Shown here: positions 4,649 to 58,195 of the stretch, piece after piece
How the letters are laid out: every line of letters starts with the position of its first letter
How positions within the stretch are numbered: position 1 is the stretch's first letter
The notes under the pieces: model-generated
Database searches by the model: none
What the model was told of the DNA's origin: nothing
Seen by the model: the letters and a program-made list of their open reading frames with translations, nothing else
From: a virus
Reading direction: 5' to 3' (one strand)
Virus record (IMG/VR): IMGVR_UViG_3300042261_002158
Span: 50,153 to 114,152 of that record
Length of the DNA stretch: 64,000 nt
Made by a program: the position numbers and the translations under genes

Positions 4649-4649
4649 A

Positions 4650-5615: not shown

Positions 5616-6564
5616 GCGGTCCCTTTCTGAACCAATCTGGCCTTAGTTTTTTGATTTCAGTGTCGAATTCTGAATCATAACAAGTATTTTTTTTATTTGT
5701 ATAATTACATAAAACCACACCTAATCTTTTGTTTGGTTTTGCTTCGCCATTTCGGGCCATTTCCAGCAAGAGTTTTTTGTTTTCATCAGCAGAATTTACA
5801 AACCAATCCGGCCTTAGTTCTCTGATTTGCCTACTGAAATCAGCATCATAACTATTTCCCTTATTGACATAATTGCACAGCAGTCGTCCTATCTTGGACC
5901 GTTTCTGTACTGGTCTGGGATCTCCTCTTCTTGCCATTTCGAGCAGGAGTTTTTTGTTCTCAGCAGGCATGTCTACGAACCAATCTGGTGTCAAATTTTT
6001 GATTTCTCTACAGAAATCTGGATCGTATGTTTGTTTTTTAGAACACATATAAGTGGTTAAAGCTTGGCCTAACTTAGTTTTACAAGTAGGTTTAGGCTCG
6101 CCTCTTTTAGCCATTTCGAGTAAGAGTTTTTTATTTTCAGTGGCTGTATTCGTAAACCAATGTGGAGCCAATCTCCTAATTTGCTGATCAAATTCAGGAT
6201 CGTATCCTGCTTGATCTTTATAAATATAGGAAGTCATGGCATTGCCTATTTTGGTTTTTTGTGAGGGTTTAGGATCTCCTCTTCTAGCCATTTCGAGCAA
6301 TTGTTTTTTCTTTTTCGTAGCAGTGCTTTCAAACCAATCCGGTCTTACGGATTTGATTTTGGCATCAAACTCTGGGCTATAGCATCCTCCTGTTTTTTTC
6401 AGATAGTTTTGGAGTGTTTTACCTAGTTTTGAATCATTATCAGGTCTTGGTTCTCCATTTTGAGCCATTCTGAGCAACAGGTTTCTTTTGTCGGTAGAGG
6501 TTTCGGAAAATTCGAACCAATCAGGGATATTCTCCAATGCTGTGATTTGCCATGTTTTAAGCAT
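5608..6564 (-). CDS. Tandem-repeat protein, 5 units
   Basis: 318 residues; MLKTWQITALENIPDWFEF cap and five repeats. More diverged than the neighbouring copies (for example KKKKQLLEMARRGDPKP and a one-residue-shorter unit), suggesting it is an older duplicate. The ATG is preceded by AGGAAG, which is part of the remnant's final codons. Function unknown; see the array entry. Confidence 0.8.
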   Translation of the reverse strand: MLKTWQITALENIPDWFEFSETSTDKRNLLLRMAQNGEPRPDNDSKLGKTLQNYLKKTGGCYSPEFDAKIKSVRPDWFESTATKKKKQLLEMARRGDPKPSQKTKIGNAMTSYIYKDQAGYDPEFDQQIRRLAPHWFTNTATENKKLLLEMAKRGEPKPTCKTKLGQALTTYMCSKKQTYDPDFCREIKNLTPDWFVDMPAENKKLLLEMARRGDPRPVQKRSKIGRLLCNYVNKGNSYDADFSRQIRELRPDWFVNSADENKKLLLEMARNGEAKPNKRLGVVLCNYTNKKNTCYDSEFDTEIKKLRPDWFRKGPHA

Positions 6565-6565
6565 C

Positions 6566-6695
6566 TTACTTCCTAAACCAGTCAGGTCTCAAAGTTTTAA
6601 TTTGTTTAGTGAATTCTGGACTAAAACACATTCCTTTATTGATGTATTTACAAAACGCTCGGTTTAAGTGCTGTAATTTGCCATTTTTTAAGCAT
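6566..6695 (-). pseudogene. Collapsed copy of the repeat-protein gene
   Basis: ATG at 6695 opens with the family cap (MLKKWQITAL) but the frame stops after 15 codons. A second frame immediately after it reads the last half-repeat (FCKYINKG...SPEFTKQIKTLRPDWFRK) to the stop at 6566. The two pieces are joined in different frames with all internal repeats missing. This is what an internal deletion between a cap and a terminal repeat would leave behind. Confidence 0.85.
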
Positions 6696-6696
6696 G

Positions 6697-7854
6697 TTAC
6701 TTCCTAAACCAATGTGGAGCCAACTTTCTGATTTTAGTGTCGAATTCTGGATCGTAAGTGTTACTTTTTTTATTTGTGTATTTACCCAAAACCAAGCCTA
6801 ATTTTGTCTTCCAATTTGGTTTTGATTCTCCATTCCTTGCCATCTTCAAAAGTCGTTCTTTCTTTTCTTTAACAATATCTGATTGGCTAACAAACCAATC
6901 TAATCTTAGTTTTCTGATTTTAACATCAAATTCTAGATCATAACAATTATTATTTTTATTAACATAATTACACAAGCATGCACCTAATTTTGTACATTGA
7001 GAAGGTCTTGATTCTCCTTTTGCAGCCCTCTCCAAAAGCAGTTCTTTATTCTCATTGGCGGTATTCGCAAACCAATCCGGTCTTAAATTTCTGACTTTAA
7101 TATCAAACTCTGAATCGTATGCGCTTTGACCGCTAGTAGTATAACTGCATAAAGCTACACCTAACTTATTGTGTTTGTTTGGTCTTGGTTCTCCATTCCT
7201 TGCCATCTCCAAAAGTCGTTCTTTCTTTTCATCAGCAATATCTGATTTACTAACAAACCAATCTAGCCTTAACTCTCTGATCTTGGCAGTAAATTCTGGA
7301 TCGTAGGAGCCACTATTTTTATTTGTATAACTACATAAAACTACACCTAACTTATTGGGTTTGTTTGGTCTTGGTTTTCCATTTCTTGCCATCTCCAAAA
7401 GTTGTTCTTTATTTTTATCAGCAGTATTCTCAAGCCAATCTGGTCTTAACTTCCGAATTTGTTTGTCAAATTCTGGATCGTAAGAACCATTATTTTTATT
7501 TACATAACCAAACAAACGCCCATACAATTTTGTTTTAAAACTTGGTCTTGGTTTTCCATTCCTCGCCATCTCCAAAAGTTGTTCTTTATTTTTATCGGCA
7601 GTATTTGTAAACCAATCTGGCCTTAACTTCCGAATTTGTTTGTCAAATTCTGGATCGTAAGAACCTTTATTTTTATTTGTGTATTCAACTAAACATCCCC
7701 CTAATTTATTTAATTTACAACTTGGTCTTGGCTCTCCATTCCTTGCCATTTCAAGTAATAGTTTTTTATTTTCAGCAGAAGATGATAATTCTTCAACAAA
7801 ATCAATCCAGCCAGGAATTTTTTCCAGTGCTGTGATTTGCCATTTTTTAAGCAT
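6697..7854 (-). CDS. Tandem-repeat protein, 6 units
   Basis: 385 residues, the longest and first-transcribed member of the array: cap MLKKWQITALEKIPGWIDF followed by six repeats. Units here use ARNGKPRP/ARNGEPRP and insert a few residues (SKSDIADEKK, SQSDIVKEKK) before two of the repeats, unlike the downstream copies. The ATG lies 5 nt upstream of the start-to-stop gap with the methyltransferase-like gene, so the whole block is probably one transcript. Function unknown. Confidence 0.8.
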   Translation of the reverse strand: MLKKWQITALEKIPGWIDFVEELSSSAENKKLLLEMARNGEPRPSCKLNKLGGCLVEYTNKNKGSYDPEFDKQIRKLRPDWFTNTADKNKEQLLEMARNGKPRPSFKTKLYGRLFGYVNKNNGSYDPEFDKQIRKLRPDWLENTADKNKEQLLEMARNGKPRPNKPNKLGVVLCSYTNKNSGSYDPEFTAKIRELRLDWFVSKSDIADEKKERLLEMARNGEPRPNKHNKLGVALCSYTTSGQSAYDSEFDIKVRNLRPDWFANTANENKELLLERAAKGESRPSQCTKLGACLCNYVNKNNNCYDLEFDVKIRKLRLDWFVSQSDIVKEKKERLLKMARNGESKPNWKTKLGLVLGKYTNKKSNTYDPEFDTKIRKLAPHWFRK

Positions 7855-7859
7855 AATCC

Positions 7860-8492
7860 CTATCCATTGTAAAAAAAATAAGTTGCCATCTCAGTTTTGC
7901 TGGCCTTATATGTATAAAAGTGATCGTACACTCCCCAACTACTTGGCTTGCGTAAATACGGCATCAAATACCCCAGAAAACTCTGAGGATCAAATTTGCG
8001 ATTAGACCGACCGTCAGAAATCATTACGTTCGCAGCCACCACTGTCTCATCTGGACAAAAGTTCATGGTTCTTGCCACATACAAATGACTAGCTGGCGTT
8101 ATAACGGCTCTAGTGTAATCAAAATACACCAAAGAAGGCTTAAATTGATCGTAATTCTCACTAATCATTTCGAGCCAGTCCCCTTTAAACCAATGAGCTT
8201 CTGGATGGTCCTGGCGATTTTTCTCGATCACTCCTTCCTCATATACATCATAATCCACTCCGCAAAACTGATCTTTTTTGAGAAACCCCATATTTACCAA
8301 CTGAACAATTTCTGCCCCTTCACTATTGGGTTGTCGGTTGCACAACGTCCAATAGTTACGATCCAAAGGAATGGATTGGTTGCCAGTGATGTCCCGATAA
8401 GCCTGGACCAACTGCTTTCTTGCCTCGATCTTCTTGGGCTTTTCATGATATACCGGCTGATGCTGAGATTGGCGATACTTGTCAAAAGGCAT
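7860..8492 (-). CDS. Putative SAM-dependent methyltransferase-like protein
   Basis: 210 residues from the ATG at 8492, chosen because of an AGGAGT site 7 nt upstream (the open frame extends further but lies across a terminator). A central FCGVDYDVYEEG...NRQDHPEAHW, then GDW, then LVYFDYT pattern resembles the nucleotide-binding and acidic motifs of class I methyltransferases, though the usual glycine-rich motif I is not obvious. It heads the repeat-protein transcript. A different Rossmann-like enzyme is possible. Confidence 0.45.
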   Translation of the reverse strand: MPFDKYRQSQHQPVYHEKPKKIEARKQLVQAYRDITGNQSIPLDRNYWTLCNRQPNSEGAEIVQLVNMGFLKKDQFCGVDYDVYEEGVIEKNRQDHPEAHWFKGDWLEMISENYDQFKPSLVYFDYTRAVITPASHLYVARTMNFCPDETVVAANVMISDGRSNRKFDPQSFLGYLMPYLRKPSSWGVYDHFYTYKASKTEMATYFFYNG

Positions 8493-8591
8493 GTGTAGAC
8501 TCCTATTGCAAGGCCAACTGGTGTCAAATTTTGACAATTTCCTCTGTAGCAAGTCTACAACAACCGAATTTTTTTGTAAAGTTTGCAAAAA

Positions 8592-8615
8592 AATACCGGC
8601 ATCTCTGCCGGTATT
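8592..8615 (-). terminator. Rho-independent terminator after the GHKL gene
   Basis: Ten-base perfect stem (8592-8601 with 8606-8615), TCTC loop, followed on the minus strand by a seven-T run. It ends the GHKL ATPase transcript and lies upstream of the methyltransferase-like start at 8492. Confidence 0.85.
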
Positions 8616-8641
8616 TAAGAAAAACAATGTGAGGAAAAAAA

Positions 8642-10768
8642 TCAATCTTTCTCCGCATCCTGATTGATTTTTTTCACATCATTCAATAAAGACAGAGCCT
8701 CTTCGCTTTCAAAAACAGCCATCAAATGTGAATTTGCATTCAACTGCTCTGAAGAACCAAATTTATTCTGTCCTTCTTCTTTTTTCGTCTTATTAAAATC
8801 AATTTCCAAATACTCCTGATGAAGAATATGAGCACGACGAGCCACTTTTGTAGCCTTTTCATAAATAGAAAGCCACTTGCGATAAAGACTGGGATGCATA
8901 TCATAATTAAAAGAAGCCATCTGCAAAATAGTCGTATTATTTTTATTCAAAACAAGACGACCGTTACTGTAAACGCCGAATAAATCGGGCTCAAATTCCT
9001 GATAAGCTTCATGATCAATTTCAGATGTTCTGTTCTCCATCCCTTTCTCAGAATTAGGACCGCCATGCCCTCCAGGTCGCTTCGGAATCAACACTCTAAA
9101 AGTGAAATTGTACTTGTCAACGCCAATATCACAATGATAATTCTTTTTGGGCAAATATTGCTTCAAATGCTTGTATTCGTCAACAGAAATCAAAGATTTC
9201 TTGCCATTTTCATCAATTCGAATCAATGGAGAGACACTAATAGAATAAACATTGTCATATTCAAGCCTAAAATCGACCCCAGGAGTGACATTGAAAATAG
9301 CATCCAGTACAGGTTTTCCATTGCCATATTCCAATTTCACAAAATTAACATGATCTCCAGGCTCTAAAGTTCTGATAATTTTCCAGCTTTTATTGCCTTC
9401 ACTATCAGCAACTTCTTTCAAAACATTAATAGTTCGATCTACCGAAGCACCTTGATACTTAGGAATAGGAGCCAAATCATCAGTACAATCGTAAGGACAG
9501 TGGCTTTTCATCCTCTCTTTGAAATCAACCAAATTAGTCGGATTTTCATTGGCAATTTTCTGAAATACTATATTGACAAGCTTTCTGGTTTGATGAGGAT
9601 CATTAGTTTGGAAAAATTCATTCAATCCTCCCAAGGCAAAAATAGATCCTGATTGCTTTGGAATTAAATTAACCCGAGCCTTGACAACAGGCAACCAATG
9701 AGCAGCTTCAGTAAATTCTGGATAAAACTGTTTAAGTTTAGAGCTAAAATCCTTTTTAGGACAGAAAATACCTAAAATAGCCAATAAATCACGAACATTA
9801 GAGGATGTGTAATATGGTTCGGTACTTGCCCTGGTTAAATCTTTATTGCAATATTCACCTTTATAATCACAGGTGACAAACAACAATTCATTAGAGTGTT
9901 TGTAGTCATTCCTTCTTAAGCCTTTTTCTTCTCCATTCAACACAATTGGACGATTAAAACCATCCAAAAGGTTTGGATAAACTACAAGCTGAATATTAAC
10001 ATCAAAATCATATTTCGCATCTCCTTCTTTAATGCTAAAAGATGTGTTAAAGAACTCCTGATCTACACAAAACTCTTCATCAACTTTATCAATGCTTGGA
10101 ATATTGAAAGTACGGGAGCTATCTGAAAAATCGATAGTTTTGTATTTGCACAACTTTCCGTGAATTGTATTTAGCTTGGCACGCAGCCTAATCTTGCCAA
10201 CCAAAGGAGTGATTTCTGATATCAGTCTTGCATAGGAAGGAACAATCAGTCCATTGTGCTCCTTGTTTTTGATCGTGTTGGCATTAGAGTATCTGTAGAT
10301 GTAATAGACATTATATCTTTTATAATTGCTCCCCATTACGCTTTTGATTTCATGATTCCACTCATTGGAAACGTCCTTAACAAGGGCATCATTGAAATTT
10401 TCACAAGTCAACCTAACGCTATATTCGCAATCTGAACGATTGTGAATAACAAATTCAGCCTCCTCATTTGTCTTCGTTGTAAGAAACATATTGGACTTCA
10501 TGCCGTTACCTTGAATTCCGTCTCCACCGGTAACGCTTGGTCGCATGCAGGATTTTAGGTCTTCAATGCTTTTAAAAGCATTTCCATTATGGCCAAGTAC
10601 AAAATATTCTTTGCTGTCCTTTCTTAGATTGAACAGAATCATTTCGTTTGCTTTTTGAGCATAAGCATTATGAAGCACCTCCCTAACGACTAGAGCAACC
10701 CTCTTTTCTTCCGAGACATAATCGTCTCGACGGGTTAACATTGTAATTGGAAAAGTAGAATTCGGCAT
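8642..10768 (-). CDS. GHKL-family ATPase, possibly rIIA-like
   Basis: 708 residues. The N-terminal 110 residues carry the Bergerat ATP-binding fold: N-box REVLHNAYAQKA (E30, N34), a G1-like LGHNGNAF (58-65) and G2 GGDGIQGNGMKS (81-92). The canonical G1 aspartate (DxGxG) reads as H-N-G-N-A, so metal/adenine contacts may differ. The long remainder has no recognised domain. T4 rIIA is a GHKL protein of similar size (725 residues), which makes an rIIA-like membrane-integrity or exclusion role plausible; MutL/Hsp90/topoisomerase VI-like proteins are alternatives. Transcribed from a good sigma70-type promoter and closed by a terminator. Confidence 0.65.
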   Translation of the reverse strand: MPNSTFPITMLTRRDDYVSEEKRVALVVREVLHNAYAQKANEMILFNLRKDSKEYFVLGHNGNAFKSIEDLKSCMRPSVTGGDGIQGNGMKSNMFLTTKTNEEAEFVIHNRSDCEYSVRLTCENFNDALVKDVSNEWNHEIKSVMGSNYKRYNVYYIYRYSNANTIKNKEHNGLIVPSYARLISEITPLVGKIRLRAKLNTIHGKLCKYKTIDFSDSSRTFNIPSIDKVDEEFCVDQEFFNTSFSIKEGDAKYDFDVNIQLVVYPNLLDGFNRPIVLNGEEKGLRRNDYKHSNELLFVTCDYKGEYCNKDLTRASTEPYYTSSNVRDLLAILGIFCPKKDFSSKLKQFYPEFTEAAHWLPVVKARVNLIPKQSGSIFALGGLNEFFQTNDPHQTRKLVNIVFQKIANENPTNLVDFKERMKSHCPYDCTDDLAPIPKYQGASVDRTINVLKEVADSEGNKSWKIIRTLEPGDHVNFVKLEYGNGKPVLDAIFNVTPGVDFRLEYDNVYSISVSPLIRIDENGKKSLISVDEYKHLKQYLPKKNYHCDIGVDKYNFTFRVLIPKRPGGHGGPNSEKGMENRTSEIDHEAYQEFEPDLFGVYSNGRLVLNKNNTTILQMASFNYDMHPSLYRKWLSIYEKATKVARRAHILHQEYLEIDFNKTKKEEGQNKFGSSEQLNANSHLMAVFESEEALSLLNDVKKINQDAEKD

Positions 10769-12197: not shown

Positions 12198-13517
12198 ATG
12201 GATTCAAGTATCGCTGGCACACAACTTTCTGAGCAGATTTATGATTTAATGCAAGGACAAGAATCCTTGTATCTTAGAACTGAGCCCGAAGTCCCTGACT
12301 TTACGGCTAATTTACCATTTAGAATTTTTATTTATAATAAAAATCAAAAGCTAGAGATCGAGGTATTCTCCGAAAATTTGATCTTGATTTTTAATTTATT
12401 GAAAATTACAATATTTACAAATGAATTTATTAAATACTTGTACTGTTGGAACATTAAGTCTCTTTGCTCATATTTTACATTTTTTACATCAAAATTTTTG
12501 TTCTCAGATGTAAATATGGTGAATGTGATCGACCTGAAAGTTATTGAAAACTTTTTAGGTATCAGGAAGAATCACCCTGAAAGTTTACCAGAGGTGATTA
12601 ACAGAACAAGGATTGTAATTCAAAATAAAAACTGGAAGACTATTTACAAACAAATACATCTTCCGTTGTCGCTTAAAGTATTACCTTTAATTGAGACAAC
12701 ACCATTAATTAACACTTTGACTAGAAAATCTGAATACCCTTATTATGAAATTGAAGGCCAACAAAATGGTCGAATGAATTGTGTCAAGAAATTCACCAAT
12801 GGCTATCTTGCTCATAATATGAGTCCAGATATAAAACGAAATATGAAACCTAAAGGTTACAATCTAAGCTTTATTCTGCCCGATTATCGGTATTGTGAAG
12901 TCGTTGTCTTGCAATGGCTCACTAAAGACGAAGTGTTAAAAGACATTTTAGATTCAGGATTAGATGTACATAAGAGAATTTATGAGTTGATCACTAATAA
13001 TCCCTGTGATACTCCAAACAAGCGAAGCATTTCTAAGAAAATGTTTTTGCCAGTTATGTTTGGTTGTGGTCCTAAAGGTCTAGCAGATAATTTAAAGATC
13101 ACAGAGGATGTGGCAAAGGAATTGTATCGTAGGATTTGTATTATTTTTAAACAATCTGCAAAATGGATGTTTGAGAAACAAAAAGCAGCAGCACAAGGAG
13201 TGATTTGCGATTATTTCGGCAGACCTAGACAATATCCGCAAAATGAGAGCTATCGTGCTCGTAATGGAATGGTTCAAGGTGTTGCTGCTACAGTTTGTCA
13301 AGAAAAATTGATTCAATTAAGTGAAAAATTAAACCGTCAGGATGCCAAGATCGCTTTTAGTGTTCATGACGGTTTTGGTTTGGTGTGTGATACAGAGAAA
13401 ATTAATCAGGTTAGTGTTTTGGTTAATGAAGTTTTAAGTTCTGAGTCTGTGTTATGTCCAGGGCTTAAGATGGAGGTAGAGATTAAAACAGGTACTCGTT
13501 TAGATGCTTTGGTTTAA
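12198..13517 (+). CDS. Family A DNA polymerase without a visible exonuclease domain
   Basis: 439 residues. Polymerase motifs: motif A around LPDYRYCEVVVL (D229, E234), motif B KRSISKKMFLPVMFGCG (275-291) and motif C SVHDGF (H390, D391), matching the palm and fingers of E. coli Pol I and T7 polymerase. The N-terminal 200 residues are short, hydrophobic and lack the DxE and other acidic residues of a 3'-5' exonuclease, so proofreading is either absent or supplied in trans. T7 polymerase is about 700 residues, so this is a minimal form. It heads the plus-strand replication block after the structured RNA; a CAGGG site precedes the ATG. Confidence 0.85.
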   Translation: MDSSIAGTQLSEQIYDLMQGQESLYLRTEPEVPDFTANLPFRIFIYNKNQKLEIEVFSENLILIFNLLKITIFTNEFIKYLYCWNIKSLCSYFTFFTSKFLFSDVNMVNVIDLKVIENFLGIRKNHPESLPEVINRTRIVIQNKNWKTIYKQIHLPLSLKVLPLIETTPLINTLTRKSEYPYYEIEGQQNGRMNCVKKFTNGYLAHNMSPDIKRNMKPKGYNLSFILPDYRYCEVVVLQWLTKDEVLKDILDSGLDVHKRIYELITNNPCDTPNKRSISKKMFLPVMFGCGPKGLADNLKITEDVAKELYRRICIIFKQSAKWMFEKQKAAAQGVICDYFGRPRQYPQNESYRARNGMVQGVAATVCQEKLIQLSEKLNRQDAKIAFSVHDGFGLVCDTEKINQVSVLVNEVLSSESVLCPGLKMEVEIKTGTRLDALV

Positions 13518-13526
13518 GGGGGTCTT

Positions 13527-14096
13527 TTGCAAACATTAGAAACAATTGTAAATAATTTTCCTATTACTGAAAAAGAATATGAAATTTTAGATAAAAAATT
13601 TGGTGCTTTAGCTTATTATGCCGCTTGGCAACTCAAAAAGAACAACATCAACAATAATCAATTAAATGATCCAGATGATGATGTTCAAGAGCTTCGTATT
13701 GCGTTAATACGTGCTGGAAGTTATTATAAAAGACAGATTTACATCGAAAGCTGTTTTAATATTTTACATAAACATGTCAAAGATAAGTTCAACAGATGTG
13801 TTTTGAAGAGATTACAACAACTTTGGATAGATCGTCGTCGTCATGGAGCTTCTAGACAGAAGTTTGGACCATTTCAGGAAAAGCTTTTGGAAAGTATGGT
13901 AAAAAATTATTTACCATTACATTTAAGACCAAATAAAGATGAATGTTTGGTTATAGATAGTAAATTTACTACTTATTGCAAACAAATTATTTGGAATGCT
14001 CAGAAATCTTTAGGCAAAAAGATCACTAAAGAAAAAAGTTGGAGAACTGCTATGGTTTCTCTTAGTGATTTCGATTATCTTAGCTCTGTTAATTAG
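13527..14096 (+). CDS. Possible gp55-like late sigma factor
   Basis: 189 residues, starting at TTG 13527 behind a GGGGG Shine-Dalgarno. The segment DDDVQELRIALIRAGSYY followed by an aromatic helix (SCFNILHKHVKD) and a basic stretch resembles region 2 of sigma factors, and the length matches T4 gp55 (185 residues). This is weak, pattern-level similarity. The location between polymerase and replicative helicase, and the TATATAAT-like octamers upstream of many genes in this window, are consistent with it. Otherwise an unknown basic protein. Confidence 0.35.
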   Translation: MQTLETIVNNFPITEKEYEILDKKFGALAYYAAWQLKKNNINNNQLNDPDDDVQELRIALIRAGSYYKRQIYIESCFNILHKHVKDKFNRCVLKRLQQLWIDRRRHGASRQKFGPFQEKLLESMVKNYLPLHLRPNKDECLVIDSKFTTYCKQIIWNAQKSLGKKITKEKSWRTAMVSLSDFDYLSSVN

Positions 14097-14107
14097 AGAG
14101 GTGATAA

Positions 14108-15592
14108 ATGGATGATGAGTTGTTAAATGACCCTGAGCTAGCAGATCCTGATGGCGAAGATGGAGATGCAAAGTATTCTTGGGATGAGGATTTTCAAAAA
14201 CATATCTTGTCTTTATTAATTTCAGATCGACAGTTTTTGCTTTCCTCCTTGGACATTATAAAGCCTAATTACTTTACAAATAAAGTCCATAAAAAAGTAT
14301 GTCAAATCGTTTTTTCTTATTTTAAGAAATATCGAGTTATTCCTCGTAAAGACTTTATTATCCAAGAGATGAAAACCAGTCTCAAGGATAATAAAGCTTT
14401 ATCTTATTATTTGGCCGAATTTAATGTGGTAGTTGATTATTTCCAGCCTGGATTGGATTCTAGAGAATATCTTCAAGACAAAATTACCTATTTTGCCAAA
14501 ATTCAAGCAGTTCGCAAGGCATTTCATGATTCTTTGAAGGAGATTGATAAGAATCCTGAATCAGAGGAGACATGGCAAACAGTTTATGACAAGATGAGGG
14601 ATGCGATGACTACGCATCAGAATTTTGAAGTTGGAATTGATTATTTTAATACGTTTAAAGATCGATACGTTGCCAAAGAAGAAGATGATGACAATGATCG
14701 ATTTATTACAGGCATCGACAGTATTGATATACAGATTAATGGTGGTGGCTATATTCGTGGAGAAATTATTGGAGTTGTGGCGGGAAGCGGGGTGGGCAAG
14801 AGCGTTTTCCTATCTTGCTTGACAGCCATTAACATTTTAAGAGGCAAAAATGGCGTTTATATTTCTCTAGAATTGGCCGAAAAAAAGATTGCTGATCGTT
14901 TTGATTCTATCTTTACTGAATTTCCAATTCAAAAACTTTCAAGTTATAAAGAAGACGTTTTTGAAAAATTAGATAGTTTGGAAATTGACAGAACCAATAA
15001 ATTCGGTTCGTTAATTATCAAAGCTTTTCCAGCAGGAACAGCTTCAGTTAACACAATTAGAGCTTATTTATCCCAATTGAGATTTCATGGTTTCAATCCA
15101 GATTTTGTGATTGTGGATTATGTAGGCGAAATGCAAGGTATTCCTGGCCTTCCCACTCATGAATCTATGGAAAAAATTGTCAGAGATTTGCGAGGTATGG
15201 GTTCTGAAGAAAAGGTGTTTGTAGCCACTGCTATGCAGCCTAATCGTGATTATAAAAACGATAAGGGCAGTAGTGGTCCTCAAAGGATTGACGATAAGCA
15301 TTTGGCGGGTTCTTTTGGTCAAATTCGTCCTTTGGATGGTTGTTTTTCATTAAACCAGAACGATACAGAAAAGGAATTGGGGATTGGTCGAGGATATGTG
15401 ATAAAACAGCGAGATGGCGAGAGCAGATACCAGTTTTTCTTAAAATTCAATAAAGAAAATCTTAAGATCACTGAGATGAGCAGTATAGATTATCGTAAGG
15501 CATTGAATTTAAGAAAAGAATATGCTTCTCAAGAAATCGAGATGGATCAGATTAGCGATGATAATCAATGGCCGACAGGAGATGAACAGTGA
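14108..15592 (+). CDS. DnaB/gp41-like replicative helicase
   Basis: 494 residues. An N-terminal helical domain (about 25-110) is followed by a RecA-like core with Walker A AGSGVGKS (225-232) and a Walker B-type FVIVDYVGEM stretch near residue 340; length and layout match DnaB and T4 gp41 hexameric 5'-3' helicases. The N-terminus is unusually acidic (residues 1-27). It has a GAGAGGTG ribosome site and overlaps the next gene by 4 nt. Expected to unwind the fork together with the polymerase and ssDNA-binding protein encoded nearby. No primase was identified in the window. Confidence 0.85.
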   Translation: MDDELLNDPELADPDGEDGDAKYSWDEDFQKHILSLLISDRQFLLSSLDIIKPNYFTNKVHKKVCQIVFSYFKKYRVIPRKDFIIQEMKTSLKDNKALSYYLAEFNVVVDYFQPGLDSREYLQDKITYFAKIQAVRKAFHDSLKEIDKNPESEETWQTVYDKMRDAMTTHQNFEVGIDYFNTFKDRYVAKEEDDDNDRFITGIDSIDIQINGGGYIRGEIIGVVAGSGVGKSVFLSCLTAINILRGKNGVYISLELAEKKIADRFDSIFTEFPIQKLSSYKEDVFEKLDSLEIDRTNKFGSLIIKAFPAGTASVNTIRAYLSQLRFHGFNPDFVIVDYVGEMQGIPGLPTHESMEKIVRDLRGMGSEEKVFVATAMQPNRDYKNDKGSSGPQRIDDKHLAGSFGQIRPLDGCFSLNQNDTEKELGIGRGYVIKQRDGESRYQFFLKFNKENLKITEMSSIDYRKALNLRKEYASQEIEMDQISDDNQWPTGDEQ

Positions 15593-15978
15593 AATTAGAT
15601 TTTCGTGTGATTGGTTATGCTAAGCTTGGCACAATAAACTCAGATAAAAAGTATGTGATAGAACAAATCTTGGGATATTGGGAAGCATCTGTTGATGATA
15701 AAATTTTAGCAACTGGCAATTTATATACATGTCTTGATGCTTGCAATGCACATGCTGATGAAGTTAAAAAAATGTGCGAAAGAGAAGAGTTGCTTAAAAA
15801 GATGAAGGAATATAAGAGGATTAGTGAAGAAAAAAAGAAAGAATATTACAAAGAAGAATATTACAAATACAATCCTGAATGTGGGTGTATAGTCAGAGAA
15901 GATATTATGATCATGGCAATGTTGCCACAGATGTTAAAATTAGGTATAACATTAGAAGATTTAGAAGAAAAGGAATAA
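15589..15978 (+). CDS. Hypothetical protein
   Basis: 129 residues from a GTG overlapping the helicase stop, with AGGAGA upstream. N-terminal beta-rich part (residues 1-55) and a lysine/glutamate-rich helix, then a C-terminal CGC-containing segment. No family recognised; co-translated with the helicase. Confidence 0.6.
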   Translation: MKLDFRVIGYAKLGTINSDKKYVIEQILGYWEASVDDKILATGNLYTCLDACNAHADEVKKMCEREELLKKMKEYKRISEEKKKEYYKEEYYKYNPECGCIVREDIMIMAMLPQMLKLGITLEDLEEKE

Positions 15979-15980
15979 CA

Positions 15981-16541
15981 ATGGAAATATTAAAGTTTGA
16001 TAGGTTTGTGATAGAGATTGATCCAGAAAAACTAAGATTTGATGAAACCAGTTTATCTCATTATATCCAAACCGAATCTGGTTATTATGATAATTTTGGC
16101 GGTTACTTAGCTAAAGCAGAAAGAAATCAGCAAAACAAAGAATTGTTGTATGAACAAGTATTTCATCAGAGATACATTGAGGCTAAAGAAGAAGGAGGGA
16201 CAGATAAACTTGCCGAGGCAAGAGCCAAAGCAGACCAGACTGTCAATGCTTTAAAGAATGAGATTATTGAGGCAAAGTATGTGGTAAATCGTTTAAAGCA
16301 ACATTTAAAAGCTTGGGATAAAAGCCATGATAATGCCCAATCATTAGGGCATATGATGCGAAAACAAATTGATAAATTAAATTCTGATATTAAATTGGCA
16401 AGTATTGGCTCTGACGATCCTAGAATCGCTAATATGCTTGCTTCTTGGGGGGAAGATGCTTGGAATCCTCCAGTTAAAGAAAAAGAGGAAGAGGAAGAGC
16501 CAGGATTTGATGCAAATTTTGATGTAGAAGATTTGATATAA
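15981..16541 (+). CDS. Coiled-coil protein, possible UvsY-like recombination mediator
   Basis: 186 residues from the ATG with an AAAGGA site 8 nt upstream (an upstream in-frame start inside the previous gene is unlikely). Mostly helical and charged: a YLAKAERNQQ helix, an AEARAKAD helix and a RLKQHLKAWDKSHDN...GHMMRKQ helix, ending in an acidic tail. T4 UvsY (137 residues) has a comparable helix-linker-helix order and works with UvsX and gp32, both encoded nearby. Similarity is architectural only, so this remains a hypothesis. Confidence 0.4.
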   Translation: MEILKFDRFVIEIDPEKLRFDETSLSHYIQTESGYYDNFGGYLAKAERNQQNKELLYEQVFHQRYIEAKEEGGTDKLAEARAKADQTVNALKNEIIEAKYVVNRLKQHLKAWDKSHDNAQSLGHMMRKQIDKLNSDIKLASIGSDDPRIANMLASWGEDAWNPPVKEKEEEEEPGFDANFDVEDLI

Positions 16542-17173
16542 TGATTGATCCGAAGAAAATTACTAATTTCAAATTAAATCCGTATCAACTTCAAGAAGTA
16601 TTGTCTTTTTGGATATGTGTGGCGGGTAAATCTGCGGCTACTATTGCTCCTAGAATCGACAAGGTTATTTGGTTTGGCTATAAGATTTTAAATCATCGAG
16701 GTCCAAAAATACCTTTTAAAATTTTTCGAGAACTAGGAAAAGAACGACTTTCTGAATTATTAAAAAATTTTGGAATTGGCTGTTATAGTTTAAAAGCCGG
16801 TACTTTGGTAGATATTGCAAATTCTGATTTAAATTTGAGTATTTGCAGTAGAGAAGACTTGATTAAGATCAAGGGTATTGGCTTAAAAACAGCTAGTTGT
16901 TTTATTATGCATAGCCGCAAAAACTCTCGTTGTGCTGGTTTGGATACGCATTTAGCCAAATTTATGCATTCATTGTTTCCAAAGGAATTTGATGGAGAGA
17001 TTCCCAAGAGCAAAAAGCAGTATTTTGTAATGGAAAATCGATTTTTAGCTATTTGTGATAAATTGCAACGTCCTCCAGCCAAATTAGATTTGTTAATTTG
17101 GAAACTTTATGCATATCATCAATGTCATGCCAAACGTTTTGTTGAAGTAATTGAGTCAAGAATTAATCAGTAG
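16541..17173 (+). CDS. HhH-GPD DNA glycosylase/AP lyase (endonuclease III-like)
   Basis: 210 residues; the start overlaps the previous stop by 1 nt. A helix-hairpin-helix KGIGLKT (111-117) with Lys116 in the position of the E. coli Nth catalytic lysine, followed by LDTHLAKF with Asp135 in the position of the catalytic aspartate. The C-terminal four-Cys iron-sulphur cluster of Nth is absent. Likely removes damaged bases or cleaves abasic sites; base specificity cannot be read from the sequence. Confidence 0.75.
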   Translation: MIDPKKITNFKLNPYQLQEVLSFWICVAGKSAATIAPRIDKVIWFGYKILNHRGPKIPFKIFRELGKERLSELLKNFGIGCYSLKAGTLVDIANSDLNLSICSREDLIKIKGIGLKTASCFIMHSRKNSRCAGLDTHLAKFMHSLFPKEFDGEIPKSKKQYFVMENRFLAICDKLQRPPAKLDLLIWKLYAYHQCHAKRFVEVIESRINQ

Positions 17174-48273: not shown

Positions 48274-49875
48274 ATGTCTAAATCCAAAATGTTTAGTGGC
48301 TCTCCGATTCTACAAGGCAATAACACTATCCCAGGTGTGCCAGTACACAAGGAAGTAGTCGAAATATTGCCTCAAATTGAAGCGGCATGTAAGGGTATGG
48401 GATTGGATTATTACCCAATCATTCTGGAATTCGTTTGTTATGATGAAATGTCAGAGTTAGCTAGTTACGGAGGGTTTCCTGTACGATATCCCCATTGGAA
48501 GTGGGGTATGGAATATGAGCAATTGGCAAGAGGATATGAATTTAACCAATATCGTATATCAGAAATGGTTGTGAATACCTGTCCTTGTCGTATTTACATA
48601 ATGGATTCTAACACCCTGGTGGATAATATTAATGTTATTTGTCATGCCATTGGACATAACGATTTCTTTAAAAACAACATTTTCTTCCATCCTACAGATG
48701 GAAACATGATGAACAAACTTGCGAATCACGGCACAAGAATCCGCAATTATATGGCACGTTGGGGCAGGGAAACAGTTACTGAGTTTATCGATCAGGTATT
48801 GAGAATTGAAACATTGATTAATCCTCAAGATGCCTGGAAGCAACGTAAAATTAAGAAAGCGGTAATCAAGGACGAAAGAAATTATCGTCACCCTCGTCGT
48901 TTGGATTCAACTCATAATTATATGGATGAATGGGTGAATCCTAAGGAATATATCGAAAGAGAACATGAAATTATTGAACGTAAGGATGCCAAAGAATTTC
49001 TGGATATTTTTGAAAAGCCAGAAAAAAATATTATGGGTTATTTAAAGGACCATGCCCCTTTAAAGCCTTGGCAACAAGACATTATCACTATGTTGTATGA
49101 GGAATCGATGTATTTTGATCCTCAGAGACGTACCAAAATGATAAATGAAGGTTGGGCCTCTTATGTAGATTATCATCTTCTTTGTAGAGAAGGGCTAGTG
49201 TCTTTAGGGCAACCTACCACTGATTGTGGAATTTGGGAATATTCCAAGCATAAAATGCAGGTCTTGGGCGGAAAGTATTCTATGAATCCCTATAAATTGG
49301 GATTTGAATTGCTTTTGGATATCGAGGATCGATGGAACAAAGGCAAATTTGGACGAGAATACGAAGAATGCCAGGATATGAAAGAAAAGGAAAAATGGGA
49401 TAAACAATTAGGATTAGGTAAAGAAAAAGTATTTGAAGTTAGAAAATTTTACAATGATTATACATTGGTTCAAGAATTTTTCACCAGAGAATTTTGTGAT
49501 CGTAAACAATTCTATGAATGGCGAAAATTCCCCAATGGAGAATACAAAATTGTGAATCGAGATTTTGATTCCATCAAGAAAAATCTGCTCAATAGGCATT
49601 TGAATGGAGGTTTTCCCGACATTCGCTTGACTGACCCTAATCATTTGGGCAAGGGTTGGTTTTTCATGCAGCATTATTGGGATGATCGTCCTTTGTATGA
49701 AAAATATGTGCGTGAAACCATGACTTCTATTCATAGAATTTGGAGGGATGTGGTGTTGTTGGGCACAAGAAATGTCGATGGAGAAGAAGTTGTGTATTAT
49801 TGTGATGGGCCAGATCCTGACGAGCATATTTATTTAGTTCCTAAAGAACAATATGAAAAGGAATTTTTAAAATGA
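48274..49875 (+). CDS. spoVR: SpoVR family protein
   Basis: 533 residues. Matches the SpoVR/YcgB family through YYPIILEFVCYDEMSELASYGGFPVRYPHWKWGMEY, HAIGHNDFF and MINEGWASYVDYHLL (His-rich, possible metal site). E. coli YcgB is about 510 residues. Third member of the PrkA-YeaH-SpoVR set. AAGGAAG ribosome site; overlaps the next gene by 4 nt. Confidence 0.9.
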   Translation: MSKSKMFSGSPILQGNNTIPGVPVHKEVVEILPQIEAACKGMGLDYYPIILEFVCYDEMSELASYGGFPVRYPHWKWGMEYEQLARGYEFNQYRISEMVVNTCPCRIYIMDSNTLVDNINVICHAIGHNDFFKNNIFFHPTDGNMMNKLANHGTRIRNYMARWGRETVTEFIDQVLRIETLINPQDAWKQRKIKKAVIKDERNYRHPRRLDSTHNYMDEWVNPKEYIEREHEIIERKDAKEFLDIFEKPEKNIMGYLKDHAPLKPWQQDIITMLYEESMYFDPQRRTKMINEGWASYVDYHLLCREGLVSLGQPTTDCGIWEYSKHKMQVLGGKYSMNPYKLGFELLLDIEDRWNKGKFGREYEECQDMKEKEKWDKQLGLGKEKVFEVRKFYNDYTLVQEFFTREFCDRKQFYEWRKFPNGEYKIVNRDFDSIKKNLLNRHLNGGFPDIRLTDPNHLGKGWFFMQHYWDDRPLYEKYVRETMTSIHRIWRDVVLLGTRNVDGEEVVYYCDGPDPDEHIYLVPKEQYEKEFLK

Positions 49876-52241: not shown

Positions 52242-52907
52242 ATGAGACAATCAAAAGATCAAATTTTGTTCGATGTACATAATCATTGCATCAATTTATC
52301 CTTGAGAGATATTTATCTCCATTCTTTTTATGATAAGGAGAGCGATGGAGAACCAGGGGTAGAATATCGTATGGCTACTACATTTACTAAAAATATGTAC
52401 ATTTTGGATCAAAATCCATTTAAGCCAATTTTGGTTCATCTTCATTCTGTCGGAGGGTGTTGGTGGAATGGCATGGCAATTTATGATGTAATACAATATG
52501 CTACATCTTATATTACAATGCTTTGTTATGCTCAAGCGTCTTCGATGAGCGGGGTGATTTTACAGTCGGCAAGATGTCGAGTTATGATGCCAGATGCTCA
52601 TTTCATGATGCATCATGGAGTTATTGGAGCAGAAAATCATCCTATGGCTGTAAAATCAGCCGTAGATTTTGAAGCAAAAATGTGCAATCGTATGTTACAG
52701 ATTTTTGCTCGTAGAGCCGTAGTAGGACCTTTCTTTAAGAAAAGAAAGTCAACTACAGTTCAGGCAATCTACAATTTTTTTGATAAAAAACTTAAAGATA
52801 AAATCGATTGGTATCTAGATGCAGAAGAAACTGTATTTTTTGGATTAGCGGATTTTGTTCTAGGACATAAGCAATATCCAACAGTTGCTTCTTTAAGAGA
52901 AACATAA
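52242..52907 (+). CDS. ClpP-like serine protease
   Basis: 221 residues. HLHSVGGCWWNGMAIYDVIQY (like LxSPGG..xxGxxIyDtm), YAQASSMSGVIL with the nucleophile Ser101, FMMHHGV with His124, and a later WYLDAEETVFFGLADFVLG segment supplying the Asp. E. coli ClpP mature length is 193. Phage S14 peptidases often serve as prohead proteases; given the tagged proteins nearby this role is attractive, but host-protein degradation is possible. Confidence 0.7.
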   Translation: MRQSKDQILFDVHNHCINLSLRDIYLHSFYDKESDGEPGVEYRMATTFTKNMYILDQNPFKPILVHLHSVGGCWWNGMAIYDVIQYATSYITMLCYAQASSMSGVILQSARCRVMMPDAHFMMHHGVIGAENHPMAVKSAVDFEAKMCNRMLQIFARRAVVGPFFKKRKSTTVQAIYNFFDKKLKDKIDWYLDAEETVFFGLADFVLGHKQYPTVASLRET

Positions 52908-53938: not shown

Positions 53939-55285
53939 ATGAATCATCCGGTTTGTGGATTTGAACACCTTCATCGTCATACCTCATTTTCGCTCCTTGA
54001 TGGGTTTGCTACAGTTGCCGAATATGCGGAACGGATGCCGCAATTAAATCAAAAACACCTATGTGTTACTGATCACGGAGTAATGGGAGCGGTTCCAAGC
54101 CAAATTACAGAATGTGAAAGACATAATCTGCATCCAATTTTTGCTATGGAAGCATATGTTAACGATATGCAGCCTGAAGTTCAGGTACGTCAAGAATCGG
54201 CTGATTTTCGCAAGGATTTGCCAGAACATCTGCAAAAGAAATTTGATAAGTCTTGTCACTTAACAATTCTTGCTGCAACAGATGAAGGTTATTCTAATTT
54301 AGTACAGGTTTCATCTTGGGGTTGGATTCATGGCTTTTATCGCAAACCACGAGTTACTCGGGAAGTCTTAAAAAGACACAAAAAAGGCTTGATCTTTCTA
54401 AGTGGATGTGCAAATAGCGAAATTGCCAATGCCTTAATGAATGATGGCGAAGATGCAGCAATGGATATGGTACGTTTGTACCAAGAGATGTTTTCGCCTA
54501 ATTTCAGACTTGAAATTATGATGTTGGATTTTAAAGGTCAAAAAGATTACAATTCATTTTTGATCAAAGCTCATGATAAATTTGGCGTTCCTTTAGTACT
54601 GACTCAAGACACTCATTATTGCATTGGCGCACATTCTCTTAATCAACGTTTGATGTTGATGCAAAAAAACAAAAGGACCATTCAAGAAGTTGAGGCTATG
54701 ATCAATGCAGAAGAAGATGCATTCGAACTGCAAGATTCTAATTTATGGATGAAAAGTGAAGATGAGCTTAACGAAAAGTGGGAAAAAGATTATCAAGATA
54801 ATATAGATTACGAATTGTTCAAACAAGCCAAATTAAATTCTGTTAAGATTGCTAAATCGTGTAAAGGCGTGCAGTTAAATAGAGAAATTAAATTTCCTAA
54901 GGTAGATGCTCCTGATATGATTTTGTGGCAAGAAACTCAAAAAGGATTGAAAGCTAGAAGATGTCCTGATACTGAAGAATATAGAAATCGCATCAAGGAG
55001 GAATATGAGCTTATTTCCAAAAAAGGATTTTCTAGCTATTTTTTGATTCAAAAAGAAATGATTGATGAAGCGAGAAGTGCAGGGAAGGAAATTTTAGGTT
55101 TTGGAGATGGCTCGGAGTGTGTTGGTCCAGGGCGAGGAAGTGTTTGTGGCAGTTTAGTAGCTTATTGTTTGCGACTACATGATGTAGAACCGATCATACA
55201 CAATTTAAGCTTTAGTCGATTTTTAAGTCCTGCTCGTGGCGGTCTTCAAATGAAGGTGAGATTTTCTGGCAAACCAATTAAATAA
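53939..55285 (+). CDS. N-terminal half of DNA polymerase III alpha (PHP domain), ends before catalytic Asp
   Basis: 448 residues. PHP domain at the start: EHLHRHTSFSLLDG (His10, His12, His14) and TDHG (45-48); the chain then follows Pol III alpha up to GPGRGS (396-401), CGSLVAY and LSFSRFLSPAR. In full-length DnaE the next segment contains the DxDxD polymerase residues; here it is replaced by GGLQMKVRFSGKPIK and a stop, followed by a terminator. So the palm aspartates, fingers and C-terminal domains are absent. It may be a split polymerase with the other half elsewhere, a stand-alone PHP nuclease, or a broken gene. Confidence 0.8.
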   Translation: MNHPVCGFEHLHRHTSFSLLDGFATVAEYAERMPQLNQKHLCVTDHGVMGAVPSQITECERHNLHPIFAMEAYVNDMQPEVQVRQESADFRKDLPEHLQKKFDKSCHLTILAATDEGYSNLVQVSSWGWIHGFYRKPRVTREVLKRHKKGLIFLSGCANSEIANALMNDGEDAAMDMVRLYQEMFSPNFRLEIMMLDFKGQKDYNSFLIKAHDKFGVPLVLTQDTHYCIGAHSLNQRLMLMQKNKRTIQEVEAMINAEEDAFELQDSNLWMKSEDELNEKWEKDYQDNIDYELFKQAKLNSVKIAKSCKGVQLNREIKFPKVDAPDMILWQETQKGLKARRCPDTEEYRNRIKEEYELISKKGFSSYFLIQKEMIDEARSAGKEILGFGDGSECVGPGRGSVCGSLVAYCLRLHDVEPIIHNLSFSRFLSPARGGLQMKVRFSGKPIK

Positions 55286-55286
55286 A

Positions 55287-55311
55287 AAAACCGCCCACGA
55301 AGGGCGGTTTT
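55287..55311 (-). terminator. Terminator between convergent genes
   Basis: AAAACCGCCC (55287-55296) with GGGCGGTTTT (55302-55311). On the minus strand it is followed by a seven-T run, on the plus strand by only four, so it mainly serves the minus-strand gene at 55327. Confidence 0.85.
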
Positions 55312-55326
55312 CGCAAACAATGATGC

Positions 55327-56187
55327 CTACCAGCGTCTCATCATCATAGCATTATTGAAATTTCTCATAGCGGGAGCTTGTGGCATTGAGGGCATGCCTC
55401 CCATTGCCGACATATCTCCTGGCATCATGCCTTGTTGCATATCTACTCCTGGCATTGGTTGTTGTGCCGCTCCAGGGAATCCTGACATAGGAGGCATTCC
55501 AGGCTGTCCTGGGGTGCCCATTGGTGCATCCATTGGCATTTCTTCCATCTCTTCTTCGCCCATGCCTTCTGGATTTTCCATGTCTTCTTCTTTGTCTCCG
55601 TCTTCATCCTCTTCGTCTTCTTCGTCGCCAATTTCTTCATCATCAAGATCATCAAAGTCTAAATCCTCGTCTTCTTCGTCTTCATTTTCTTGATCGGCGT
55701 CTTGAAGATTTTCTTGGCTTTTTTGTCCAAGATCTTGAACAAATGGAGCAGCTACTTCTTCATTCATAGCTTTTACTAGTTTGTTACAAACAACTGGTCC
55801 ATATTCACGATGGGACATAACTTCTGAAATATATTGATAGGTTGCTTTGTGTTGTAGCATTTCTGCTATGACACTGGAGAGCGTTCCACTATTTTTTAGC
55901 TCATGTACCAATTGTTCTGCAAATAATGGATTGGACTTCAAATTGTCAACTACCATTTTGGAAAGTTGAATTTGCTCCATGGTATAATAGCTTTTGGATG
56001 GAATTTTGAGAACTTTGTCGCCCATATCGCCTAAACCTGTTTTGGCATTTGCTTTGTTTTTTCCTGTGGCAACATAAGGATTTTTATGTCCTTTGGGTGC
56101 TTTTGGTGGCGTTTTGGGATAAACATTATCTCCTTTAACGCTAGTTGTTACTTTGCTATCGAGAAATTCTCTATATATCTTTTTCAT
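55327..56187 (-). CDS. Acidic, Met/Pro/Gly-rich protein with IYREFLDS start
   Basis: 286 residues. N-terminus MKKIYREFLDSK may be another variant of the tag. A helical domain (about 65-155) is followed by a very acidic run (residues 165-205, Asp/Glu) and a low-complexity Met/Gly/Pro tail. Acidic plus disordered composition is seen in scaffold-like or chaperone proteins; no family recognised. AGAGG ribosome site; overlaps the PspC gene by 17 nt. Confidence 0.6.
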   Translation of the reverse strand: MKKIYREFLDSKVTTSVKGDNVYPKTPPKAPKGHKNPYVATGKNKANAKTGLGDMGDKVLKIPSKSYYTMEQIQLSKMVVDNLKSNPLFAEQLVHELKNSGTLSSVIAEMLQHKATYQYISEVMSHREYGPVVCNKLVKAMNEEVAAPFVQDLGQKSQENLQDADQENEDEEDEDLDFDDLDDEEIGDEEDEEDEDGDKEEDMENPEGMGEEEMEEMPMDAPMGTPGQPGMPPMSGFPGAAQQPMPGVDMQQGMMPGDMSAMGGMPSMPQAPAMRNFNNAMMMRRW

Positions 56188-56416: not shown

Positions 56417-58195
56417 TCACAACCAAATTCCATAACCTTTTCTTGGATCGGCATTTATCCACTCATCATAAATATCGAAAATATGAGCCCCGCCAACCAC
56501 ACCCTGTCCTGGCTCTAAGACAATAAATTGTCTACAAGCAAAATTATCTTGAAAATATGTATATCCTAAAGGTTTAGAAATTTGCCAAATTGGTATCAAT
56601 TGATTGGCACTATAAACATTTTGAGTGCCTGTTCCATTCAACTGAATGATTCCAAATCCATTCGTAGCTACACCTATGTAAGTATATTGAATATTTCTTA
56701 AATCGAAATTTCCAGCCACCTTAACAGTGCTTGTGCCCCAATAAATGCTGCCTCCAGTACAAGTTAGATTGCCAGTGATGGTAATTTGTCCTGTTTTAAA
56801 ATAAGCGATTCCGCCAGTTTGAAAAGTGAAGTCTCCAGTCGTTAGATAATATCCGTTGGCATCTAAAGTGTTTGAACCAAGAGTGATACTTTCTGCAACC
56901 GCACTTCCGTTTAAAATACAAGTTGCTGTTCCTCCTCCATCAAAATATACAGCGTTGCCACTATGAGGTATTCCAGCACCTCCTATTCCATTACTTACGT
57001 CTGACCAATTCCAACCATTGTGCCAATTTGTATCAGAATCACTAATCCAATAACGATCATGTGCTGGAGAAATACTTGGACTGGCACTGGCACTTGGACT
57101 TAGGCTCGGACTGGCAGAAGGACTCTTACTGGCCGAAGGGCTTAGACTTGGACTTGTACTGGCTGAAGGACTTAATGAAGGACTTATACTTGGACTAGCA
57201 GAAGGACTCTTACTAGCAGAAGGGCTTAAACTTGGACTGACACTAGCAGAAGGGCTTAAACTTGGACTGACACTAGCAGAAGGGCTTGTTGAAGGACTTA
57301 TACTTGGACTAGCAGAAGGACTCTTACTGGCAGAAGGACTTAAACTTGGACTTATACTGGCCGAAGGACTCAATGAGGGGCTGATGCTCGCAGAAGGGCT
57401 TAATGAAGGACTTTTACTAGCCGAAGGACTCAATGAAGGGCTGATGCTTGCAGAAGGGCTTAATGAAGGACTTGTACTAGCCGAAGGACTCAATGAAGGA
57501 CTTGCACTAGCAGAGGGGCTTAGTGAAGGACTTGGGCTGGGACTTGTACTGGCCGAAGGGCTTGCTGAAGGACTCATACTAGAACTAGAAGATAGTTCTA
57601 ATAGTTCTAAGCTGCCATCTCCACCTTTGCCTCCAAGGCCAACATTTCCTGGCATAGTTCCAGAGCCACCACCGCCACCACCACCACCACCTTCTCCGTC
57701 TGATCCGTTGGCGAAAGCTACTCCACCAGTACCACCACCTTCGAACCCTCCAGCACCACCAACCCCAGAACTGCCTGCCGATCCATTAGTTGTATTTGTT
57801 CCGCCAGATCCAGCACCACCACCACCACCACCAGAGCCTCCACCTGGATCGCCGCCATCGCCACCATGGTAGGTTCCATCGCCACCTAGACTATTATCTC
57901 CAATCGTTCCGCCACCGCCTGCTCCTATCATTTTGGAAGGATTGTCAATTCCTTGGATATCTGTTCCATTGGCCCAATTGCCAGCAGTAGCACCGGCACC
58001 AACGGTTATTGTGAATTGTTCGCCTTCTGTTACAAGCAAAATGCCGTCATTCCAACCGCCACCACCACCACCTCGTCCACCAGCACCAACTGTACCATTA
58101 GATCCGCCAGCACCAGCACCTTGGCATATGACGTAAATTGAATCAACGCCTGCGGGGACGGTATATGTGTAGGTTCCTGGTGTGTATAGCGTCAT
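56417..58195 (-). CDS. Glycine-rich, SPS-repeat adhesin or tail-fibre-like protein
   Basis: 592 residues in three parts. Residues 1-205: glycine-rich region starting with a PGTYTYTVPAGV strand, a layout found in phage tail adhesins. Residues 205-380: serine/proline repeats of a 10-residue SPSLSPSASx unit forming a stiff linker. Residues 380-592: beta-rich domain beginning HDRYWISDSDTNWH, repeated small GNLT/GDFT strands typical of surface proteins. Likely host-surface-binding or virion surface protein. Upstream TAAATAAT and AAGAGG elements precede the start. Confidence 0.7.
   Translation of the reverse strand: MTLYTPGTYTYTVPAGVDSIYVICQGAGAGGSNGTVGAGGRGGGGGGWNDGILLVTEGEQFTITVGAGATAGNWANGTDIQGIDNPSKMIGAGGGGTIGDNSLGGDGTYHGGDGGDPGGGSGGGGGGAGSGGTNTTNGSAGSSGVGGAGGFEGGGTGGVAFANGSDGEGGGGGGGGGSGTMPGNVGLGGKGGDGSLELLELSSSSSMSPSASPSASTSPSPSPSLSPSASASPSLSPSASTSPSLSPSASISPSLSPSASKSPSLSPSASISPSLSPSASISPSLSPSASKSPSASPSISPSTSPSASVSPSLSPSASVSPSLSPSASKSPSASPSISPSLSPSASTSPSLSPSASKSPSASPSLSPSASASPSISPAHDRYWISDSDTNWHNGWNWSDVSNGIGGAGIPHSGNAVYFDGGGTATCILNGSAVAESITLGSNTLDANGYYLTTGDFTFQTGGIAYFKTGQITITGNLTCTGGSIYWGTSTVKVAGNFDLRNIQYTYIGVATNGFGIIQLNGTGTQNVYSANQLIPIWQISKPLGYTYFQDNFACRQFIVLEPGQGVVGGAHIFDIYDEWINADPRKGYGIWL
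57060..57580. repeat. Tandem 30-bp-type repeats coding SPSLSPSASx
   Basis: About 17 imperfect 30-bp units (some shortened) of the form GAAGGACTTxxACTxGCAGAAGGGCTTA-like on the plus strand, coding on the minus strand. Units such as KSPSLSPSASISPSLSPSAS recur, so unit number can change by slippage. Open frames on the opposite strand here are an effect of the repeat. Confidence 0.9.

Follow-up and report, generated by a model that had tools for sequence, protein, structure and literature searches.

Cyanobacterial dnaE comprises two genes whose products are joined by a split intein. Among phages, a split, PHP-less DNA polymerase III (Pol III) alpha has been described in group 2.2 jumbo phages such as RaK2 and Atu_ph07 (Iyer et al. 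2021, PMC7824862), and the Pol III gene of Bacillus phage G (gp329/gp331/gp339) is interrupted between positions 102 and 103 of the palm profile PF07733. Here we analyze the last 64 kb (hereafter the window) of the 114,152-base IMG/VR virus record IMGVR_UViG_3300042261_002158, which encodes the N-terminal half (N-half) of a split Pol III alpha, together with the catalytic C-terminal half (C-half) found in related phages.

An N-terminal Half That Ends Ahead of the Catalytic Aspartates

The N-half follows Pol III alpha from the PHP domain through the GPGRGS loop to RFLSPARGG (residues 427–435) and then passes into a short tail, as the initial annotation had described from the reading frame; Pfam matches to PHP and to PF07733 positions 3–98 bear this out (Table 1). 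In alignment, the palm stretch corresponds to Escherichia coli DnaE up to residue 396, just short of that enzyme's catalytic aspartates, D401 and D403. The protein closes with GPGRGSVCGSLVAYCLRLHDVEPIIHNLSFSRFLSPARGG followed by the 13-residue tail LQMKVRFSGKPIK and a TAA stop. As PDxDxD and everything beyond it are absent, this is not a complete single-chain C-family (DnaE) polymerase; ending at the seam between the nucleoside triphosphate (NTP)-binding loop and the catalytic strand, it has the extent of the N-unit of a split Pol III alpha.

Searching viral contigs yielded relatives 45–64% identical to the window protein, and the seam is readable in 37 viral loci (duplicate assemblies counted in), representing approximately 25 distinct proteins. 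In all 37, the frame ends within about 5–30 residues past the motif R-F-[LM]-S-x-[AS]-R-G-G. The tails vary, with their first residues holding G-G-[KR]-x-x-x-L-x-F in place of the P-D-x-D-x-D-F of unsplit enzymes, which suggests a leftover catalytic strand without its aspartates. Because independent relatives end at the same codon position with tails of their own, the stop does not stem from a frameshift or faulty assembly concealing an intact catalytic half downstream, and the earlier view that so exact a break point does not reflect random decay holds.

GPGRGS is kept in nearly all N-halves, with GPARGS or GAGRGS in a few. Mean pairwise identity across N-halves is higher in the palm stub (0.71) than in PHP (0.62), and for this reason an idle palm stub is unlikely. 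The PHP domain of Mycobacterium tuberculosis DnaE1 is a proofreading exonuclease (PMC5636811). All nine of its Zn ligands are matched in the window PHP when aligned to 5lew (H12, H14, D21, H46, E71, H107, C157, D224, and H226), and they are kept wherever the N-half sequences cover them, save in rows with disrupted 5' ends. Based on these DnaE1-type ligands, the window PHP is probably a proofreading exonuclease.

The Catalytic Half in Related Phages

The initial annotation had offered two readings, a split polymerase or a repurposed PHP nuclease; relatives favor the former, as their catalytic half is a separate gene. We searched 14 whole records with the PF17657 and PF07733 profiles or a C-half profile. 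A separate C-half gene is present in 11 of these, downstream of the N-half and on the same strand, detected with PF17657 and PF07733 in G002, G003, and G005–G008, and with the C-half profile in G009–G013. PF07733 coverage meets at the seam: N-halves end at position 98 and C-halves, where PF07733 matches them, begin at 98–100. The distance from N-half to C-half, where both are seen, is between approximately 1 and 14 kb.

No protein starting near PDFDIDF, which had been proposed as something to look for elsewhere in the genome, was found in the 114,152-base contig, nor any match to the PF07733 remainder, the PF17657 finger or the C-half profile. The three records without a C-half (G000, G001, and G004, that of this phage among them) end 0.2–8.7 kb past the N-half. 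In L031, which at 64% identity is among the nearest relatives of the window, the C-half lies 9.0 kb past the N-half and is preceded by an AAA ATPase gene. The contig analyzed here ends 8.7 kb past its N-half and includes neither gene, and the C-half of this phage is probably just beyond the contig end.

Three aspartates, D89, D91, and D248 (L035 numbering), are invariant in 12 C-halves, which also carry fingers and HhH domains, while their C-terminal region shows a weak structural match to OB folds. A Foldseek search with the C-half model, which is loose, returned mainly DnaE and PolC matches with poor superposition. No C-half relative was found in a scan of bacterial genomes.

Overlap of the Halves and a Possible Origin by Duplication

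Every C-half opens with a separate start codon and approximately 85 residues that precede PDxDxD. This extension matches the palm segment of the N-half with an hhalign score of 40.3 (P 6e-7), compared to 20.5 for the best of 200 column-shuffles, and it matches only palm windows and no other N-half region; Pfam on the bare extension is too weak to be informative (best E 0.05). On E. coli DnaE, alignment of the C-half profile begins at residue 314 and that of the N-half runs to residue 396, so that residues 314–396 are present in both halves. The extension lacks GPGRGS and has a conserved N-x-[NH]-N-L(L) in that place. By these comparisons, it appears to be a second palm-segment copy that has decayed.

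Because the halves overlap in the palm segment, the pair looks like the product of a duplication of the dnaE front followed by reciprocal loss rather than of a simple fission; a single fission without duplication is disfavored by the shared 314–396 stretch. In such a course of events, PHP and GPGRGS would have survived only in the N-copy and DxD only in the C-copy, and the N-half would have been moved or copied upstream, to its place after the SpoVR gene.

A Putative Two-Subunit Replicative Polymerase

We consider it rather probable, from sequence comparison, that the N-half is the N-terminal subunit of a two-gene replicative C-family polymerase, a heterodimer with one composite active site that arose by duplication and reciprocal loss. 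The N-terminal subunit would supply the PHP exonuclease and the palm part that grips the deoxynucleoside triphosphate, and the C-terminal subunit the second part of the palm, where the catalytic Asp triad lies, along with fingers, HhH, and OB. We infer that the two proteins associate without splicing and are active as a pair: one would bring its GPGRGS loop and the other its aspartates to a single active site, with PHP as a built-in proofreader. Slightly better than even, in our judgment, is the chance that this heterodimer is obligate, i.e., that one catalytic center is spread over two polypeptides, each with a half-dead palm copy, and that PHP sits on a subunit unable to polymerize. Pol III has NTP-binding and Mg2+-binding subdomains (PMC7824862); in our own assignment, GPGRGS would belong to the former and DxD to the latter. 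AlphaFold models of the single halves have low confidence at the palm parts (N-half residues 397–402 and 425–448; C-half residues 81–124 and 193–253), a pattern that fits a shared active site but is no proof of it.

Three points weigh against such a heterodimer. The alignments behind the models are shallow (22 and 12 rows), and the low palm confidence could stem from this; the second copy in the C-half could occupy the place of the N-half palm piece, which would contradict a shared active site; and the C-half of this phage is not itself among the assembled sequence. The main rival explanation builds on the second of these: the C-half may be a complete polymerase alone, its decayed copy rebuilding the palm with N-x-[NH]-N in place of GPGRGS, and the N-half a PHP proofreading subunit docked via its palm stub. 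The C-half does have its own homologous palm segment with a conserved Nx[NH]NLL where the GS motif would be, and the PHP ligands are intact. However, constraint is stronger on the N-half palm stub, including its GPGRGS, than on PHP, which a docking stub would not require, and the extension is not confidently a palm part in the C-half model. We therefore regard a self-sufficient C-half as possible but the less likely of the two. That the N-half acts alone, as a PHP nuclease unconnected with the polymerase, is far less plausible still: its PHP site is intact and PHP-only exonucleases exist, but the partner gene is always retained nearby where visible, and the palm stub is the most conserved part of the protein, which also makes the repurposed nuclease of the initial annotation the weaker of its two readings.

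Hardly more credible is an assembly artefact or a pseudogene left by truncation or decay. The lack of a catalytic half on this contig is what such an origin would give, but 37 loci end alike, residues are conserved throughout, and relatives have the C-half; for the family, the shared ends together with these C-halves refute it. We also attach very little probability to RNA- or protein-level trans-splicing that joins the halves into one chain. In its favor are phage G, where the seam is interrupted and a homing endonuclease gene is found there, and inteins at other places in some relatives. On the other hand, the 13-residue tail leaves no intein N-fragment at the N-half end, and Rfam introns are absent from the window and from the seam in six relatives, where the sole intron adjoins a transfer-messenger RNA (tmRNA) gene. 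Moreover, the C-half starts from a separate ATG and overlaps the N-half through its 85-residue extension, such that a joined chain would contain a duplicated palm segment; as this extension is palm-like and not an intein, the pair is not a split-intein DnaE. Split-intein and trans-splicing sequences at the two ends, which the initial annotation had proposed as a check, gave no signal.

Inteins were observed elsewhere in these genes. L014 (a 459-kb contig; 6285–8774 and 13812–16748) carries inteins ahead of CHYC within the N-half PHP region and at YGFN|SH within the C-half, and L060 has an intein at GPGRG|S, the same site as in phage G gp329.

Bypass-like Inserts in the PHP Codons of Relatives

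Short inserts interrupt the N-half frame of several relatives, though not that of the window, directly past the PHP motif HLH(L)HTD. Hairpin inserts of 40–42 nucleotides, most with in-frame stops, occur in L057 (10001–10060; the same in L010, L058, L059, and L064), L062, L070, L054, L053, and L067. Inserts of 8 nucleotides, TAGTTTAC or TAGCTAAC, occupy almost the same site at the N-half 5' end, directly behind a His codon, in L043, L044, L046, L047, L048, and L063, beginning with TAG in L043, L044, L046, and L048; L066 has an 8-nucleotide insert at approximately 10034 plus a second, hairpin insert. The pattern EHLHLH-TAG was matched in 12 stretches of viral contigs. After the inserts, reading restarts exactly at the homologous codon, mostly in another frame, and in most cases the take-off and last-gap codons are the same at two of three positions. 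Compared with shuffles, the hairpins have much greater stability (z -3 to -7). HNH-endonuclease-like genes end at or overlap the N-half start in L057 (8991–9998), L062 (8774–9988), L070 (4416–5420), and L008 (56–1261), and three of these four genomes (L057, L062, and L070) have a hairpin insert.

In phage T4, the split of topoisomerase genes 39 and 60 has been ascribed to a homing endonuclease, and gene 60 contains an insert that is bypassed (PMC5009743). The relatives described here share with T4 a split replication enzyme, a nearby homing endonuclease, and a bypass-type insert, although the enzyme is a different one and the inserts are confined to relatives of the window. The inserts may represent candidate sites of programmed translational bypass similar to that in gene 60.

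Gene Neighborhood and the Nearest Unsplit Polymerase

The N-half gene is flanked by genes that recur in relatives (Table 1), and the hairpin at its end is scored by the scan as a minus-strand terminator. The nearest unsplit gene, for a protein of 1180 residues, is found in the huge phage LR756511.1 (595 kb). Its product shows 47% identity, and SpoVR, acidic protein, and AAA ATPase genes are nearby; in contrast to the window, this is one gene at the C-half site, flanked by the AAA ATPase gene and by a downstream gene common to the split genomes. In a tree, the split genomes and LR756511 group together with 100/100 support against other phage DnaE, without resolution of their inner order. The concatenated tree places LR756511 among the split genomes, but a single clade of split genes is not rejected (approximately unbiased test, p 0.415). 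Thus, re-fusion in LR756511 is possible, and single and repeated origins of the split both fit the tree.

Table 1. Features of the window at and around the N-half gene
Feature	Position	Strand	Basis and remarks
N-half of split DNA polymerase III alpha, 448 residues	53939..55285	+	Open reading frame and profile matches; ATG start, TAA stop
PHP domain	53966..54520	+	Pfam PHP over residues 10–194, E 5e-36
First palm part, PF07733 positions 3–98 of 260	54923..55237	+	Pfam match, residues 329–433
GPGRGS nucleotide-binding loop, residues 396–401	55124..55141	+	Read from sequence
N-half end: GG and tail LQMKVRFSGKPIK	55238..55282	+	Sequence, comparison with relatives
GC-rich terminator-like hairpin	55286..55312	.	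Terminator scan; between the convergent N-half gene and the 55327–56187 gene
Acidic protein	55327..56187	-	Homolog between N-half and C-half in L014, L031, and L038
SpoVR gene	48274..49875	+	Conserved neighbor, found upstream of relatives' N-halves and of the LR756511 unsplit gene
ClpP-like protease	52242..52907	+	Upstream neighbor conserved in part of the relatives

The separate family-A polymerase reported in the initial annotation is real; located at 12198–13517, it is short (439 residues) with a degenerate N-terminal region. Similar short PolA proteins are encoded in G004, G007, G008, and LR756511, indicating that PolA is paired with a C-family enzyme in these phages. Phage tmRNA genes lie between the polymerase halves in L031 (16389–16955), L035 (13825–14183), and L038 (15512–15864); in L031, a group I intron is located right against the tmRNA, followed by an HNH-like open reading frame. 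The SpoVR gene of L046, L047, L054, L063, and L049 is broken once or twice by approximately 1.2-kb inserts, possibly introns. The window also contains adjacent genes of tandem, approximately 55-residue repeats (4106–7854, minus strand; NKKLLLEMA+RGEPRP..LG.AL..YTN....YDPEFD..IR.L.P.WF). Low-complexity genes, for a GDEDM repeat protein and a SPSASxSPSLSP repeat protein with a glycine-rich head, are found at G000:C1:16892–18025 and at 56417–58195 of the window.

Comparison with Known Split Polymerases

The N-half aligns with M. tuberculosis DnaE1 (5lew) over 438 profile positions and shares its nine PHP zinc ligands, although the latter enzyme is a single chain. The cyanobacterial enzyme is divided at another site and by a split intein, whereas the window contains no intein fragment. 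Phage G Pol III is interrupted at the same seam as the window-type genes but differs in having a homing endonuclease gene, and probably introns, at this position; its gp331 starts past the motif, and duplication of the palm segment was not observed in phage G Pol III. In addition, the profiles phrog_7513, phrog_13169, and phrog_11127 run out near the seam and phrog_12219 starts there, suggesting more split cases.

The minimal split Pol III of Iyer et al. has, as here, separate N (NTP-binding) and C (Mg2+/template-binding) proteins, and we found that the RaK2 and Atu_ph07 N-units end at PF07733 position 95–98, the same seam. However, those proteins are minimal and lack PHP (the RaK2 N-unit has 173 residues), and their genes are distant and occur beside a family-B polymerase, whereas the window-type split is full size with PHP, has close genes and a duplication overlap, and occurs beside a short family-A polymerase. 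The strong PHP match in the window (E 5e-36) and the fingers and HhH of the C-halves set this type apart from one with no PHP or other domain. No paper on a full-size split with duplicated palm segments was found, subscription literature being outside the search.

These comparisons carry a warning that searches for complete polymerases overlook the replicase of many huge phages. They also make two questions testable: whether a C-family palm can assemble in trans, and whether phages control synthesis and proofreading separately via splitting. A syntenic unsplit relative makes the origin of the present split traceable. The seam cuts through the active site rather than between domains, and unrelated jumbo phages are divided at this very position. 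A PHP-less polymerase split there was already known from Iyer et al. (2021); what sets the phages described here apart is the combination of full-size subunits with duplicated palm segments.
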